Assembly: GCF_000426625.1 (NCBI RefSeq)
Contig: NZ_KE384548.1
Span: 964,703-1,028,702 of the forward strand
DNA length: 64,000 bases
Direction of reading: 5' to 3'
From: Psychrilyobacter atlanticus DSM 19335
Lineage (GTDB): Bacteria > Fusobacteriota > Fusobacteriia > Fusobacteriales > Fusobacteriaceae
A model generated the notes under the pieces. It had not been told where the DNA came from. It made no database searches and saw nothing but the letters and a program-made list of their open reading frames with translations. This document shows, piece by piece, positions 1-9,412 of this stretch. Both the position numbers and the translations under genes were made by a program. Every line of letters starts with the position of its first letter. The first letter of the stretch is position 1.

Positions 1-639
1 ACTGTTACTGATTTTCCTGCTTCTATTTCCGGTAATGTTACTCCGGTTTTTATGTTTCCTGTTGCTCCTACTAAATTCGGCGCTGTCTGTCCATCAAAGA
101 ACTTTGAGTCTAATAGGTCTGTTAATACTGCGCCTACTACTTTTACACTTGAATTATTCGTTACCTTTATTGCATATGTTAATTTCTCATCTGCTTCGGC
201 TATATCATTCGTATTTGCATCTGTTACTGTTTTTTCTACTAATAAATTTGTTTTAGCTGTTGCACTTTCTATTGCTGTCTTCGTAATATTTGAATCTTTC
301 GTTGTACCTCCATATGATACCGTTGCCATATTATCTATTGTTTCTCCCGGTACTGTATTTAATGGATATATTGCTTTCAATTCAAAACTTACTGTTACTG
401 ATTTTCCTGCTTCTATTTCCGGTAATGTTACTCCGGTTTTTATGTTTCCTGTTGCTCCTACTAAATTCGTCGCTGTCTGTCCATCAAAGAACTTTGAGTC
501 TAATAGGTCTGTTAATACTGCGCCTACTACTTTTACACTTGAATTATTCGTTACCTTTATTGCATATGTTAATTTCTCATCTGCTTCGGCTACATCATTC
601 GTATTTGCATCTGTTACTGTTTTTTCTACTAATAAATTT
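1..639. repeat. 390-bp tandem module repeat inside the adhesin gene
   Basis: Bases 1-249 recur at 391-639 with two mismatches that I can find (80 versus 470, 203 versus 593). The period is 390 bp, or 130 codons. The copies diverge sharply at 250/640. The array runs off the left edge, so more copies are likely. Confidence 0.93.
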
Positions 640-2630
640 ATAATAGATAAACCCTTTACTGTTGCTGGTTCTGTTATAGGTGTTAATACTTTACTGTCAA
701 TAGTATTCGCATTAAATGTCGCAGGATATACTATCGTTCCAGCATTTAAATCATCTTGCGTTACTGTATGTGTTACTTCTGCTACTGCTTTTTCTCCCGG
801 TAACAATACTGTTTTTGTTGGATCAATTAATTTAATCCCACCTGTATTGTCTTTATCTGTAATCTTAATATCTTTTAAAGTACCTGTACCAGTATTTTCT
901 AGTGTCACTGTATAAGTTACAACATCTCCTACTTTGCTATATTCAGTAACAACTGATTTATCATCTTTATCTGTGATCGTTGGTGTATTACTTACTTTAA
1001 ACTTATACGTTGCTGGAATTCCAGTAGCTATAGCTGTCGCACTCTTTCCTATTACGTTTCCATCTGGTTTTACAGCTCTAAAGTTTGCAGTATTTATTAC
1101 CTTTCCATTATCCACATCATCTTGAGTTACTATATATTCTCCAGTTCCTATAGCTATTTCTCCATCTTCTTCTCCCTGTTTTGGTGGTAAAAGTATTGTT
1201 TTGTCCAATTGAACACCTGGTACCTTTAAATCTGAGATAGATACATCTTTTAATGTTTGAGTTCCCGTATTGGTTATACTGAATTTATATACAATTATAT
1301 CTCCTGCTTTTGTATAGTTTTCTTTTGTCTTTGTATAGTCTTCTCCATCCTTTATATGATCTATTCTTTTAGTTACTTCCAATCCCTCAACTATATTTGC
1401 GTATACTGTTGCTTCTGCAGCTGCATAAAGATATTCTTTAGGGTCGCTGCCTTTTTTTGTCGCCTCTACCGCTGCAGTTCTTACTATACTCCCTTTATCT
1501 ATATCGCCTTGTGTTATACTTCCTTCTATACTCGAATCAAGAACTGTTTTAGTTCCATATGTTACAACACTCTGACCAGCTTTAAGTTCGTCCCATGTGC
1601 TTTGTACAAGTCCGATATCAGATTCTCCTGCATTATCTGATATATCTATACCATCCTTCAATTTGATATTGGTAAGAGTTTCCCCCCCTGTATTTGTTAT
1701 TGTTATTTTATATTTAACGGTATCTCCTAATTTATAGTTATTTCCACTAACAACCTCTTTCTTTATGTCTAATTTATAATCATTTGTCGGTATAGTTCCT
1801 CTGACTATAGGGTTACGAAATTTATGTTCATTCATCCATTGCCCTGTTGATGAAGTAAATCCAAAATAAACGTATCTCCCTCCTAAATATTCCCCTACAA
1901 TATCTCCAAAGTAAGTATCTGTATAAGTTTTTATTCCATCCCTAAAAGTATATTTAAATGTTTTAGACGAAGCATCCCAATCAAAGGTAACCTTATGCCA
2001 CTCTCCATCTTCCATTTCATCTATTTCTTTATAAGATGTTCCACCTTTAATTCCAGAATTTCTAGTAGTTCCAATTTCTCCCTCAGCTATAAAAGCAATA
2101 TGGTCCTTTATTAAATCCCCCATTATATCACTAGGGCATTGTGGGTCATAATTAGGATTTGTATAAGTATCAAATTTAACTCCAAAGGATTTTTCAAATT
2201 TTCCTCCTAAGTCGTTTCTACCACCATAACCTATATTTTGTCCATTTCTAGCATAGTTCATATCTTTATAATCCGAAGATTTAAAAGCAAAGGCCATTCC
2301 ATCTGCTCCTATATCAATGTTTCCATTTACATCAACATATGATGAATCCGTACTACGGTTGGGATATTGAGTCTCATAATCTTTAAGACTCATCGTTTTC
2401 CTGTTCCCCAAATATATCTCATATTCAAAATGAAAATCTTCATTTAAATCAAACATATTCCGTGACCAGACTGCACCGACTTTATACCCTTCATCAGGGG
2501 TTATCCTTACCTCACTTCCACTTTTTACCGCATCTTCATAGTATAGAAAATTACTGTAGTTTCCATTAACCTCTTTCCCCCATAATGACATTGATATAAC
2601 TAATAAAAACAATAAAACTATTTTCTTCAT
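1..2630 (-). CDS. Lectin-domain repeat surface adhesin (C-terminus beyond window)
   Basis: An open frame runs from an ATG at 2630 to the window edge (876 codons, no stop), so the gene is partial. It begins with a signal peptide (MKKIVLLFLLVISMSLWG). Residues about 25-270 look like an L-type (legume-like) lectin domain, with GADGMAFAF, SFGVKFDTY, DHIAF, GEWHKVTFDWD and YFGFTSSTG in family order. From about residue 283 follow DUF11-like beta-sandwich modules of about 130 residues (starts near 283, 411, 540, 661, 791), with motifs such as GDTVKYKITITNTG and a late VTQDD turn. The last two modules seen are almost identical at DNA level. Likely an exported carbohydrate-binding adhesin; how it is anchored is not visible. 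It is read from a promoter at 3039-3067 through two tandem c-di-GMP-I riboswitches. Plus-strand frames opposite it are shadows. Confidence 0.88.
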   Translation of the reverse strand, partial: MKKIVLLFLLVISMSLWGKEVNGNYSNFLYYEDAVKSGSEVRITPDEGYKVGAVWSRNMFDLNEDFHFEYEIYLGNRKTMSLKDYETQYPNRSTDSSYVDVNGNIDIGADGMAFAFKSSDYKDMNYARNGQNIGYGGRNDLGGKFEKSFGVKFDTYTNPNYDPQCPSDIMGDLIKDHIAFIAEGEIGTTRNSGIKGGTSYKEIDEMEDGEWHKVTFDWDASSKTFKYTFRDGIKTYTDTYFGDIVGEYLGGRYVYFGFTSSTGQWMNEHKFRNPIVRGTIPTNDYKLDIKKEVVSGNNYKLGDTVKYKITITNTGGETLTNIKLKDGIDISDNAGESDIGLVQSTWDELKAGQSVVTYGTKTVLDSSIEGSITQGDIDKGSIVRTAAVEATKKGSDPKEYLYAAAEATVYANIVEGLEVTKRIDHIKDGEDYTKTKENYTKAGDIIVYKFSITNTGTQTLKDVSISDLKVPGVQLDKTILLPPKQGEEDGEIAIGTGEYIVTQDDVDNGKVINTANFRAVKPDGNVIGKSATAIATGIPATYKFKVSNTPTITDKDDKSVVTEYSKVGDVVTYTVTLENTGTGTLKDIKITDKDNTGGIKLIDPTKTVLLPGEKAVAEVTHTVTQDDLNAGTIVYPATFNANTIDSKVLTPITEPATVKGLSIINLLVEKTVTDANTNDVAEADEKLTYAIKVTNNSSVKVVGAVLTDLLDSKFFDGQTATNLVGATGNIKTGVTLPEIEAGKSVTVSFELKAIYPLNTVPGETIDNMATVSYGGTTKDSNITKTAIESATAKTNLLVEKTVTDANTNDIAEADEKLTYAIKVTNNSSVKVVGAVLTDLLDSKFFDGQTAPNLVGATGNIKTGVTLPEIEAGKSVT

Positions 2631-4874: not shown

Positions 4875-5546
4875 ATGAAAAAAATAATAGTAAGTCTATT
4901 AGTAGGTTTAACTGTCTCAGCCAATGTCTTTGCCATATCAATATCACCTAAGATAATCGAAGCTAAATTAGTTAATCAAGAAGTATTCAAGGAAATCAGG
5001 GTAAAAAATGATACCAATACTCCAAAGAGATATAAAGTATCCATAATCAAACCTATTAATATTGGTTCTGATGATTATTATATCGGGAATCATATAGAAT
5101 TTTATCCTCCCATACTAAACTTAAAACCCAATGACACTAAATCAATAAAATTACTTATAGAAGACTTTAAAGACCTTCAAGATGGTGAATATAGATGTTA
5201 TTTATCCCTCGATGAAATAACACCTTCAAATGCAAAGGGAATATCCATAAGGATAAATTTGAACTCTGCCATCTATGCCAATAAGGGAAAATTAAATAAA
5301 AGTCTCGAAATTAATGACTTTAAAATTAATGATACCCACGTCCAAGGAGTCATAGAAAATAAGGGGAATACGTCACTAAAGATCATAGCAAGATATCTAA
5401 TGGATGACGGGACTACAGTCGATCATGAGTTTTTTATTGGAAGAAAGGGAAATCACGACCTTAAGTATAATGGAAAAAATAAGGTTGTTCAAGTGGATTT
5501 ACTGGACAGGGACACTAAGAAACATATAAAAACATTAAAAATTTAA
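4875..5546 (+). CDS. PapD-like periplasmic pilus chaperone
   Basis: 223 aa with a signal peptide cleaved after NVFA. The mature start (ISISPKIIEAKLVNQEVFKEIRVKND) and the following immunoglobulin-like strands match pilus chaperones, as does a hydrophobic alternating stretch near 85-100 (YPPILNLKPNDTKSIKLLI) where family members carry the G1 strand that completes the pilin fold. Length fits (CfaA-type chaperones are about 220-240 aa). First gene of a four-gene operon, with an AGGGGG ribosome site. Function is inferred from fold pattern and neighbours; sequence divergence is high. Confidence 0.72.
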   Translation: MKKIIVSLLVGLTVSANVFAISISPKIIEAKLVNQEVFKEIRVKNDTNTPKRYKVSIIKPINIGSDDYYIGNHIEFYPPILNLKPNDTKSIKLLIEDFKDLQDGEYRCYLSLDEITPSNAKGISIRINLNSAIYANKGKLNKSLEINDFKINDTHVQGVIENKGNTSLKIIARYLMDDGTTVDHEFFIGRKGNHDLKYNGKNKVVQVDLLDRDTKKHIKTLKI

Positions 5547-5562
5547 AATAGGAGGAAAATTT

Positions 5563-5946
5563 ATGAAAAAATTATTATTAGGAGCGTTACTGGTTGTGGG
5601 GTCGATAAGTTATGGAGAAGCCACTGCTTCGACAGAGGTAAAAATTACAGCAAATGTTGTGGCAACAGGTTCAATAGAAGTTCGACAGGGTGACGCAAAA
5701 GTAACAGACCTTGTCTATGATGGTACTGAAGAAGTACTCAATGTTGTATTTACAAGTACCAATAAGACTACATTACAGACAATAACCGCAAAGGATATTA
5801 CCATGAAGAATGGTGATGAAAATGAACAGTTTTTAATATCTGTCAATGCGAATAATAGCTCAGTAACTCTAGAAAAACAAGATCTCACAAAAGTAGATGA
5901 TGGAAACTTTAATGGAACACTTATTGTTAAGGCTACATATCAATAA
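5563..5946 (+). CDS. Putative major pilin subunit
   Basis: 127 aa, signal peptide cleaved near SISYG. The mature protein is small, beta-rich and cysteine-free; it begins with an alternating hydrophobic strand (EVKITANVVATGSIEV) and ends NFNGTLIVKATYQ. Both ends resemble class 5 (CFA/I-type) pilins, where the N-terminal strand is donated to the neighbouring subunit. It lies between chaperone and usher genes, the position of cfaB in the CFA/I operon. A strong AGGAGG and a 106-bp gap before the usher suggest high separate expression. Assignment rests on context plus pattern. Confidence 0.65.
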   Translation: MKKLLLGALLVVGSISYGEATASTEVKITANVVATGSIEVRQGDAKVTDLVYDGTEEVLNVVFTSTNKTTLQTITAKDITMKNGDENEQFLISVNANNSSVTLEKQDLTKVDDGNFNGTLIVKATYQ

Positions 5947-6052
5947 AAATTTAATGGGGTACCTAGTATCCCATTATTTATATTCAAGTTATATTTTATA
6001 AACAAATAAAATTACACTCTGGTATTTTAAACATTGTAACAAGGAGAGATCG

Positions 6053-8575
6053 ATGAAAAAAAGAATTTTAATTGTGGCTTTATTTATTTTTAGCTGCCTT
6101 ACCTATTCCAATGAAGAAATCCCCTTAACTCTTAAGGTTAAATCCTATGAACAGGGGTTTTTTAAAGTTATTAAATCAGACAGCAATAAAATATATCTGA
6201 GTTTTTCAAAATTCTTGTCGGTCATTGAAAGCAATGGATATACAAATAATAATGGGTTGCTTAAGGCAGAGGTGAACAGCAGCGATTTTATCATTGTTGA
6301 TACGAATAAACAGACGATCTTATTTAATAATAATAAACAAAATTTCTTAAAAGAAGACCTTATGACTATCAACAAGGATATATATATATCCACCGATATA
6401 TTGGGAATTCTGGGAGAAGTTAAATACGATGAAAATTCACTGACCCTTGAATTACAGCCGAACTTTGAATTAAAATATGAAACTATGAATCTTATATACA
6501 ATAAGAGAACTAATCTGGAAAATAATAATAATAAACCAAAAAAACTGAGAGGCAGAACAATATTTATAGAAAATAAAATATTTACCCTAGGAAGGTTAAA
6601 ACTTAACTATGAAAATTCAGATTTGGGAAATGGTTTCGACAACGATACCCTGTCAATTGATTATACAAATAGATTATTATATGGAAATTTTAACACCTCA
6701 TTGGATCTTACCGATGGAGTAGATTGGGATACCTGGAATCTTAAATATGATAAATCATTTTTACCTTTTTTAAAAAATAAAGAACTAATCTTTGGGGACA
6801 GCTACACTCAAAATGACAACCTGTCCAACCATGAAATAAGGGGAATAAGTCTTAAATCTGCTAAATTTACCACACAATATGGGAAAACCGATATAACAGG
6901 TTATAGCAACAATGGGAATATAGTTGAGTTGTATAAAAATAATCGACTTTATGAATATCAAAAAGTTAAAAATGGGAAATATATTTTTAAAGATATAGAC
7001 GTATCCAGTGATACAGATCTCAAAGTAAGAATATATGATGAGAATAATAACTATACAGAAGAATTTATTACGGTAAAATCATTTGCCGAGATACAGGAAA
7101 AAGGACAATGGGACTATCAGTTTAACTATGGAGAAAACCGGGACATCGATCAAGATCAGCTCGATCTCAGATTATTATATGGTGTTGCTAACAGACTTAC
7201 TGTAGGGGGAGGATATCACCAGCTGGCAAATAGATACATCCCGAAAGATGAAAATAAATTTATTGAAGGTATAGGAATCTGCAGGTTATCAACTAAGATA
7301 CTTCCAACCACTGCTAAGGCAACCTACCAGCAAAACTTAAAAACCGAAAAGATAAATAAATTTATAGAAATAAAAAGTGAACTTTTGGGGCACGATATAA
7401 CCATTGAAAGCAGAGATTATGAATATCTACTGGAAGACTATTATAAAAAAATAAGTCTCAGAGCAAACAACAGGATAGGAGACTATTCCTACCGCCTTGA
7501 AACAACGAAAGAATATTACGATCTCTATAAGATAAATGAATTAGATGTTCAGGCTACAAGGTATTTCGACAGATCCTATATAGAGATTGGAAGTGATTAT
7601 GAGGAATATGACGGCAGAGATATCAATAAAACCACATTGAATTTAAAAATTTCAAAGTCATTTACTGAATTGACAGCTATTTTAGAAGCTTCCAACACCT
7701 GGAAAAATAATAGAAAAGATGAAAAAGAAGTCGGCCTGAGGATACAAAATTACTCTTCTGATTCCCCACTGGAATATAGTTTGTTTTCCAATACGGACCT
7801 GAATAAAAAGTATGAAGTAGGACTTGAAATTTCATATGACCTATACAGCGGCATTACCGGACTGTTTAATATGATCGGGGATGACGGTAAGGATCATTCT
7901 ACAGTAGGAGTAAGGATTGAAAAAACAGTTATCCTCGAAAAACCACTGGCCAACACCAAATCCACCAATATTGAAAACAGCTGGATCTATGGAAAGGTTT
8001 TTAAAGATAATAATGGAAACGGTATTATGGATCCGGGAGAAGAACCCATGGAAGGATTCATAAAGGTCAATGGTAAAAAATACATTGTCAATAAAAAAGG
8101 TGAGTATCTCATAGATAATGTAAGCGACTATGATTATACTACCTTAGATCTATCCCGGTATAAAATAAACCATATGTACAGAGTTAAGGACGAACAAATC
8201 AATGTCTATGGAAAGTCCGGAGCAGGATTGAAATTGGATATTCCTGTAAAAAGAATTATGAGTATAAGTGGTGAGGTAGTTACAAATAATATGTCGTTAT
8301 TAAAGGATACCTATGTGCAGCTCTTAAAAGGTAATAAAATTGTCAAAGAGGTCAAAGTTGATTGGGATGGTTTCTATATGTTCGAAGAGATAACAGCCTA
8401 TAATTATGATTTAAAAGTTGTATATAAAGGTTTGGAAAAATATGAAATCGACAGGAATGTTCTTAAACTGGATATCCACAATAAATCTTATATAGATAAT
8501 ATTACTTTTAAAATTATGGGAGAGGAGGAAAATAATGAAGAGACTAATTATAATGTTATTCTTAGTTGTAACTAG
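6053..8575 (+). CDS. Outer-membrane pilus usher
   Basis: 840 aa, signal peptide ending near LTYS. Residues about 20-140 form a periplasmic N-terminal domain, followed by a long beta-barrel region of alternating short strands. The stretch NGNIVELYKNNRLYEYQKVKNGKYIFKDIDV near 283-313 looks like the usher plug/middle domain. Near 650-680, GKVFKDNNGNGIMDPGEEP resembles an SdrD-B-like calcium-binding module, followed by further C-terminal beta domains. Length matches CfaC-type ushers (about 870). It would assemble and secrete the pilin upstream. Its 3' end overlaps the next gene by 41 bp, implying translational coupling. Confidence 0.75.
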   Translation: MKKRILIVALFIFSCLTYSNEEIPLTLKVKSYEQGFFKVIKSDSNKIYLSFSKFLSVIESNGYTNNNGLLKAEVNSSDFIIVDTNKQTILFNNNKQNFLKEDLMTINKDIYISTDILGILGEVKYDENSLTLELQPNFELKYETMNLIYNKRTNLENNNNKPKKLRGRTIFIENKIFTLGRLKLNYENSDLGNGFDNDTLSIDYTNRLLYGNFNTSLDLTDGVDWDTWNLKYDKSFLPFLKNKELIFGDSYTQNDNLSNHEIRGISLKSAKFTTQYGKTDITGYSNNGNIVELYKNNRLYEYQKVKNGKYIFKDIDVSSDTDLKVRIYDENNNYTEEFITVKSFAEIQEKGQWDYQFNYGENRDIDQDQLDLRLLYGVANRLTVGGGYHQLANRYIPKDENKFIEGIGICRLSTKILPTTAKATYQQNLKTEKINKFIEIKSELLGHDITIESRDYEYLLEDYYKKISLRANNRIGDYSYRLETTKEYYDLYKINELDVQATRYFDRSYIEIGSDYEEYDGRDINKTTLNLKISKSFTELTAILEASNTWKNNRKDEKEVGLRIQNYSSDSPLEYSLFSNTDLNKKYEVGLEISYDLYSGITGLFNMIGDDGKDHSTVGVRIEKTVILEKPLANTKSTNIENSWIYGKVFKDNNGNGIMDPGEEPMEGFIKVNGKKYIVNKKGEYLIDNVSDYDYTTLDLSRYKINHMYRVKDEQINVYGKSGAGLKLDIPVKRIMSISGEVVTNNMSLLKDTYVQLLKGNKIVKEVKVDWDGFYMFEEITAYNYDLKVVYKGLEKYEIDRNVLKLDIHNKSYIDNITFKIMGEEENNEETNYNVILSCN

Positions 8576-9365
8576 TATTTCATTTAGTCGAAGGTATGAA
8601 GCAGTAGTCCTAAATGGTAAAAAAGAATATTCGGTATCTATGAAAATAGATTCACATGAGAGTCAGATCAATTATCATGAAACAGGATGGTATATAACAA
8701 ATACCAGTAGAATTTTTAATAACGGATATAAAATTGACTATATAAAAATTGAAAAAGATGGAGATATAAAAAAAGGTATTGTTCCTATAAAGCTGGTAGT
8801 AAGTAGCAGTGACTCTGAAAACTTACTAAACGGCCCATTATTACAGGTTATTCAAGCCGAAATGTATTTTAGACTAGGAATCCCTGATAGACCAATAGCA
8901 GGAAGACAGGATCTACCATTAGGTCTGCAGCATTTTACCTTTATAAAAAATATCGATGAGGTTATCATAAAGCAGACTACGGAAATTAATTTAGGAACAT
9001 TATATAGTGGAGAAGAACTCTCACAATCTCTCCTCTCAAGGAATAGGCTTATTCAGATAAAATATAACACATATGGTCCTGGAGGTTATGTCCCTATGAT
9101 GGATATAGACGTCAGTGGTAGCGGAATCACTAAAAATCTAAAAATTACAGGAGGAAATTATGATTATATAAATAAAGAAATCATTCTTGTCAATCAAAGA
9201 ACAAACTCCAATGATTCATTCAAAATAAATGGTACTTATACCGTTAATTTTAAAGATCCCGGCAATGGATATATAGATTTAAATACCTATAGAATTTCCG
9301 GAGAATATCCAAAAGACTATGGAATATACAAAGCTGTTGAAACTATCAATATAACATTGTATTAA
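8535..9365 (+). CDS. Putative pilus tip adhesin or minor subunit
   Basis: 276 aa with a signal peptide (MKRLIIMLFLVVTSISFS) and beta-rich mature part. Start chosen at 8535 because of GGGAGAGGAGG just upstream and the clear signal peptide, although this overlaps the usher by 41 bp. No enzyme motif. As the last gene after the usher it sits where cfaE (tip adhesin) sits in CFA/I operons; CfaE-type proteins are longer (about 360 aa). The C-terminal part (SFKINGTYTVNFKDPGNGYIDL) could be the pilin-like domain. Role inferred from position. Confidence 0.55.
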   Translation: MKRLIIMLFLVVTSISFSRRYEAVVLNGKKEYSVSMKIDSHESQINYHETGWYITNTSRIFNNGYKIDYIKIEKDGDIKKGIVPIKLVVSSSDSENLLNGPLLQVIQAEMYFRLGIPDRPIAGRQDLPLGLQHFTFIKNIDEVIIKQTTEINLGTLYSGEELSQSLLSRNRLIQIKYNTYGPGGYVPMMDIDVSGSGITKNLKITGGNYDYINKEIILVNQRTNSNDSFKINGTYTVNFKDPGNGYIDLNTYRISGEYPKDYGIYKAVETINITLY

Positions 9366-9372
9366 AGAAATA

Positions 9373-9412
9373 AAAAAGATGATTTCTATAAAATATAGAA
9401 ATCATCTTTTTT
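9373..9412. terminator. Terminator of the chaperone-usher operon
   Basis: Perfect inverted repeat AAAGATGATTTCTATA / TATAGAAATCATCTTT with a three-base loop and a T run on the plus strand (A run on the other side). Confidence 0.9.

Follow-up and report, generated by a model that had tools for sequence, protein, structure and literature searches.

Gene content of the locus

We analysed a stretch of 64,000 nucleotides from Psychrilyobacter atlanticus DSM 19335 (contig NZ_KE384548.1, here called the window; the genome holding it comprises 3.54 Mb in three contigs) and studied the operon at its positions 4875-9365. The original prediction for this DNA had read four open reading frames (ORFs) there as genes for a chaperone, a pilin, an usher and a tip protein, and their order, positions, lengths, shared plus strand and the 41-bp overlap of the last two (8535-8575) were all recovered as claimed (Table 1). 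As read from the sequence, the N terminus of each of the four products resembles a signal peptide, and each ORF is preceded by a purine stretch resembling a ribosome-binding site. The prediction had also taken the host for a probable fusobacterium, which is right to family level, since a genome search assigns it to the family of Propionigenium maris DSM 9537 (Fusobacteriaceae). The four genes very probably specify a chaperone-usher pilus belonging to a divergent branch, and this branch is, as far as tested, specific to the Fusobacteriaceae. The computed basis consists of a chaperone of the PapD type, a genuine homologue of ushers, two secreted proteins with a subunit signature and a gene set that recurs in many Fusobacteriaceae. 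The subunit fold, the order of assembly, the pilus form and adhesion are predicted by analogy.

Table 1. Genes and RNA signals of the predicted pilus operon (positions in the window)
Feature	Position	Strand	Remarks
Periplasmic pilus chaperone	4875-5546	+	223 amino acids; signal peptide, two PapD-like domains
Major pilin subunit (putative)	5563-5946	+	127 amino acids
RNA hairpin just 3' of the pilin gene	5952-5976	+	11-bp stem, -13.3 kcal/mol, z -3.3; terminator-like
Outer-membrane usher	6053-8575	+	840 amino acids; Pfam Usher
Tip-like subunit (putative)	8535-9365	+	276 amino acids; C-terminal motif
Bidirectional intrinsic terminator closing the operon	9372-9412	+	19-bp stem and T run, -21.7 kcal/mol, z -8

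The chaperone and the usher

The first gene product is a real PapD-like chaperone. Its match to the Pfam model PapD_N (8e-4) lies under the cut-off, and the same model is matched by 16 of 26 members of the chaperone family (best 6e-9). The AlphaFold model of the protein has a mean predicted local distance difference test score (pLDDT) of 84.9, and its best match in the PDB is CfaA (Z 13.8, root-mean-square deviation (rmsd) 3.7 Å over 186 residues; VIA), followed among the other full-length VIA matches by CsuC (12.7; 4.0 Å, 171 residues), YadV (12.4), FimC (12.3) and PapD (11.8). Foldseek likewise places CfaA nearest (TM-score 0.63). Of the structure comparisons with CfaA and PapD proposed at the outset, that of the chaperone supports its identification. 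WxLIP of Enterococcus also resembles the chaperone model (Z 13.5, rmsd 5.9 Å), so the arrangement of two immunoglobulin (Ig)-like domains is not unique to pilus chaperones, and the identity of the protein is drawn from fold, operon and homology together. EcpB was considered as a further structural relative (Foldseek TM-score 0.42, absent from the VIA top list) and no conclusion was drawn from it. Pro78 is invariant in all 52 chaperone relatives, and the matching proline is reported as invariant across the whole chaperone superfamily (PMC4654587). In the G1 strand, hydrophobic residues alternate at positions 129, 131 and 133. The best PDB match of the chaperone family at the sequence level is CsuC (1e-3); searches of the PDB with the window chaperone or the window usher as single sequences returned nothing useful.

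The 840-residue protein is a true usher homologue. It passes the curated cut-off of the Pfam Usher model (PF00577, 5.5e-13; 49.1 bits against a cut-off of 27.1), and for a profile built from 26 family ushers PapC (4e-6) and FimD are the only significant PDB chains, the alignment spanning profile positions 236-556 only. A tblastn search of the window usher against plasmids gave weak matches over the plug region, mostly to annotated ushers. The architecture would comprise an N-terminal domain, a plugged barrel and two C-terminal Ig-like domains, with domain limits that are estimates. Neither PapC_N nor PapC_C of Pfam matches the window usher; residues 644-800 match the SdrD_B and CarboxypepD_reg models in place of PapC_C, and these C-terminal matches are common to most family ushers (25/26 and 23/26, respectively).

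The putative pilin and the tip-like protein

The 127- and 276-residue proteins are a predicted pilin and tip, judged by the subunit signature of the operon family. The pilin has an alternating N-terminal strand after the signal peptide and a C-terminal G-x-F/Y-x-G strand, and the tip-like protein joins an N-terminal half of no known type to a pilin-like C-terminal half (INLGTLYSGE ... GIYKAVETINITLY). The C-terminal motif scored 17.9 in the window pilin and 11.3 in the window tip, against a control maximum of 1.7 after three high-scoring controls that were operon pilins themselves had been set aside. When signal peptides were removed, the window pilin matched at E 0.0013 a pilin-family profile from which it had been left out, and the best decoy reached 0.021. 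In pairwise comparisons, which covered eleven pairs, the two best were those of the pilin with a 138-residue subunit of another fusobacterial operon, equalled by none of 300 shuffles, and of the C-terminal ~90 residues of the tip with a 256-residue P. maris protein in the equivalent position, whose gene overlaps the usher gene; here one of 300 shuffles did as well. Searches of the phylum gave only weak matches for the pilin (E 8e-4 or worse, mostly at the signal-peptide end) and for the tip (E 0.008 or worse), so that no orthologue of either is recognisable in the phylum.

The subunits encoded beside family ushers share the C-terminal G-x-Y-x-G strand, many of them also a D-F-G motif. Of 23 family pilins, 17 match DUF4402, which forms the C-terminal domain in a two-domain tip-type protein of Fusobacterium mortiferum, and seven match SCPU, the archaic pilin domain (best 8.8e-5); the window pilin has no SCPU match in Pfam. 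The PDB matches of the pilin family are weak and mostly to Caf1 (E 0.15-0.35), and in the window operon a single small subunit is accompanied by a tip-like protein that is also small; both points would suit a coat like that of Caf1, either amorphous and capsule-like or thin and polyadhesive, instead of a pilus with an adhesive tip. We consider such a coat distinctly unlikely, as the usher gene is coupled to a separate gene for a tip-like protein, and genes for two-domain tips keep appearing across the family.

Several observations weigh against a divergent chaperone-usher pilus at this locus. Neither the window pilin nor the window tip has a significant match to any public family model, and the pilin-family profile fails to pick up the tip (E 3.7). 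A structure prediction of the pilin together with seven distant subunits reached a pLDDT of 41.5 and was discarded. The super-conserved arginine that binds the subunit carboxylate (CsuC Arg89) is described as most characteristic of the archaic and alternate, that is non-classical, chaperones (PMC4654587); it aligns with Tyr109 of the window chaperone, a site that is basic in few family members. Other positions are conserved as basic (R/K52 in 52/52 and K/R107 in 46/52 members) and K/R107 may replace the Arg89 equivalent, so the carboxylate anchor is only putative. Finally, the restriction to Fusobacteriaceae rests on the phylum search, the plasmids and one narrow pattern scan.

Distribution in Fusobacteriaceae

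Relatives of the usher were found in 38 of 98 Fusobacteriota genomes, belonging to seven genera that are all Fusobacteriaceae, and in none of the other five Fusobacteriota families searched. The genome of P. atlanticus carries three family ushers, the other two being 27-29% identical to the one in the window. As the cut-off of the Pfam Usher model is exceeded in no more than three of the 98 genomes and NCBIfam gives no usher match for the window protein, standard annotation probably misses most ushers of the family.

The original prediction had proposed a search for the same synteny in other Fusobacteriota, and the gene set does recur beside the ushers, in varying order. For 41 of the 43 family usher genes inspected, a chaperone-family gene lies no more than five genes away on the same strand, and for 39 a pilin-family gene lies nearby; two-domain tip genes are also found repeatedly. 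This recurrence is strong evidence of a functional set, and with a window usher that passes the Pfam cut-off and a chaperone-usher pairing of this frequency the observation exceeds chance. The window has the order chaperone-pilin-usher-tip, Fusobacterium has tip-usher-x-pilin-chaperone and P. maris has usher-tip-chaperone-pilin-pilin. As gene order is unstable within the family, it is weak evidence of class.

Further genes and variants were seen at the family loci. A protein with MORN_2 repeats is encoded just downstream of the usher gene in L049 (8189-9067), L050 (4003-4926) and L055 (8061-8459) and in similar Fusobacterium and Cetobacterium loci. A redoxin/thioredoxin-like gene abuts or overlaps the usher gene in L060 (4482-4991) and L071 (4480-4995), where the pilins carry cysteines, which suggests dedicated disulphide handling. 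We know of no MORN_2-repeat or thioredoxin-like accessory genes in other chaperone-usher classes. One P. maris usher (L088, 1545-5435) has 1296 residues and is thus ~450 residues longer than the others. In L087 and L090, genes of ~565 and 955-1030 codons lie downstream of the usher gene and may encode large tip adhesins.

The classical and alternate systems have been described as confined to beta- and gamma-proteobacteria, with the archaic class extending to Cyanobacteria and Deinococcus-Thermus (2015 structural paper, PMC4654587), and for ushers a survey of outer-membrane families published in 2016 names Proteobacteria, Spirochaetes, Cyanobacteria and Deinococcus/Thermus (PMC4827864). In the open-licence literature we found no description of a chaperone-usher system in Fusobacterium, Cetobacterium or Psychrilyobacter, an earlier mention elsewhere being possible, and DUF4402 is mentioned nowhere in the literature searched. 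The Fusobacteriaceae very probably possess a widespread branch of chaperone-usher pili that is apparently undescribed. Such a common and often multi-copy family, present in Fusobacterium mortiferum and Cetobacterium among others, would extend the chaperone-usher systems by one phylum and perhaps by one class. If the reading is true, gut and marine fusobacteria gain an adhesive fibre missed by standard annotation, and the evolution of donor-strand pilus assembly gains a deep branch for study.

RNA signals and the neighbouring surface gene

The strong terminator hairpin directly 3' of the tip gene marks the operon as a bounded unit. The smaller hairpin behind the pilin gene could be an attenuator or a stabiliser of the mRNA. 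Sigma-70 promoter-like sites numbered 32 against 30.7 in shuffles, that is, no excess. An attachment gene had been predicted next to the operon, and the gene at window positions 3-2630 on the minus strand, which runs past the left end of the window, does encode an adhesin-like surface protein in which an L-type lectin domain (1e-34) is combined with DUF7507/DUF11 repeats. It lies on the opposite strand with two unrelated genes in between and is not evidently a member of the pilus system.

Proposed assembly

By analogy with known systems, the pilin and tip subunits would enter the periplasm via Sec, where the G1 strand of the chaperone would complete their unfinished Ig-like fold. The usher would open its plug and take up the tip-subunit complex first; pilins would then be added by donor-strand exchange and the adhesive fibre extruded through the usher in the outer membrane. 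An excess of pilin over usher is probably made possible by the hairpin that follows the pilin gene.

Relation to known chaperone-usher classes

In profile comparisons, in which the reference profile of each class holds only 3-5 sequences, the usher family scored highest with the archaic (sigma) class (95.8%, E 7e-9, 482 columns), followed by the classical (gamma; 93.4%, 2.5e-7) and the alternate (alpha; 12.4%) classes, and the chaperone family with the archaic (97.8%, 1e-12), alternate (96.8%) and classical (52.9%) classes. In trees with 12 reference proteins the fusobacterial ushers form one clade (support 100/100), as do the chaperones (100/99), and both trees split gamma and sigma from alpha and Fusobacteriota (98/98 and 98/92), the alpha and fusobacterial branches being among the longest. 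As the alpha sequences have the longest usher branches, this grouping may be long-branch attraction. Profiles, trees and chaperone structure point to different classes as the nearest, and all mark the family as distinct. The suggestion of a divergent and possibly undescribed branch fits these separate clades and the lack of a description in the literature searched. Tentatively, the family could well be a fourth chaperone-usher class, of the same depth as the classical, alternate and archaic ones, with its own anchor for the subunit C terminus (R/K52 and K/R107 for CsuC Arg89) and with the MORN_2-repeat and thioredoxin-like accessory genes.

The operon had been called CFA/I-like, after cfaABCE, and it does share with class 5 the order chaperone, pilin, usher, tip, as in the operon of Serratia sp. 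JSRIV002. Its chaperone model is nearest, if weakly, to CfaA, with CsuC and FimC close behind. As a yardstick for this class we used environmental Serratia and Pantoea operons in place of the CFA/I genes of enterotoxigenic Escherichia coli. A genuine class-5 (alternate) pilus related to CFA/I, derived from Proteobacteria or from a shared alternate ancestor and working exactly as CfaA-B-C-E, would account for this order, for the chaperone model and for the grouping with alpha, not with gamma and sigma, in both trees. We regard it as very unlikely, as the class-5 models Usher_TcfC, TcfC, CooC_C, Fimbrial_CS1 and CblD were matched by none of the window proteins in Pfam searches up to E 10, whereas the Serratia control operon matched them all (Usher_TcfC 8e-55, TcfC 3.5e-22 and CooC_C 6e-5; the CS1-type pilin model Fimbrial_CS1 3.5e-22 and CblD 6e-85). 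Only one of the 26 family ushers grazes TcfC (0.054), the usher profile is least similar to the alternate class, and the tree grouping is open to the branch-length effect noted above. The tip in the window has 276 residues against 363 in the Serratia operon. With usher, pilin and tip matching no class-5 Pfam model, "CFA/I-like" is better replaced by "divergent chaperone-usher system of unassigned class".

The archaic class, represented by Csu of Acinetobacter baumannii and compared here through operons of Deinococcus, Sinorhizobium and Acinetobacter variabilis, resembles the fusobacterial systems in its small operons with one or two pilins, a chaperone, an usher and mostly a two-domain tip; it also gives the best sequence-profile match for both usher and chaperone, and family pilins touch SCPU. 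That the branch belongs to this class as a very divergent Csu-like system would agree with those profiles, with CsuC as the best PDB sequence match of the chaperone family, with the SCPU and DUF4402 matches of the pilins and with two-domain tips and short operons like those of Sinorhizobium and A. variabilis. We hold it to be possible, on the unlikely side, because the trees separate the family from sigma as a clade of its own, the site aligned with the carboxylate-anchoring arginine does not conserve that residue, the window pilin lacks an SCPU match and the profiles favouring sigma rest on the small reference sets; the usher C terminus also differs, not being of the PapC_C type.

From the classical Fim and Pap systems of E. 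coli the divergent fusobacterial system is set apart by the weak similarity of the chaperone profile, by its separate clade and by an usher that matches neither PapC_N nor PapC_C. It shares with them a PapD-like chaperone, a Pfam Usher domain and an usher profile that finds PapC and FimD in the PDB.

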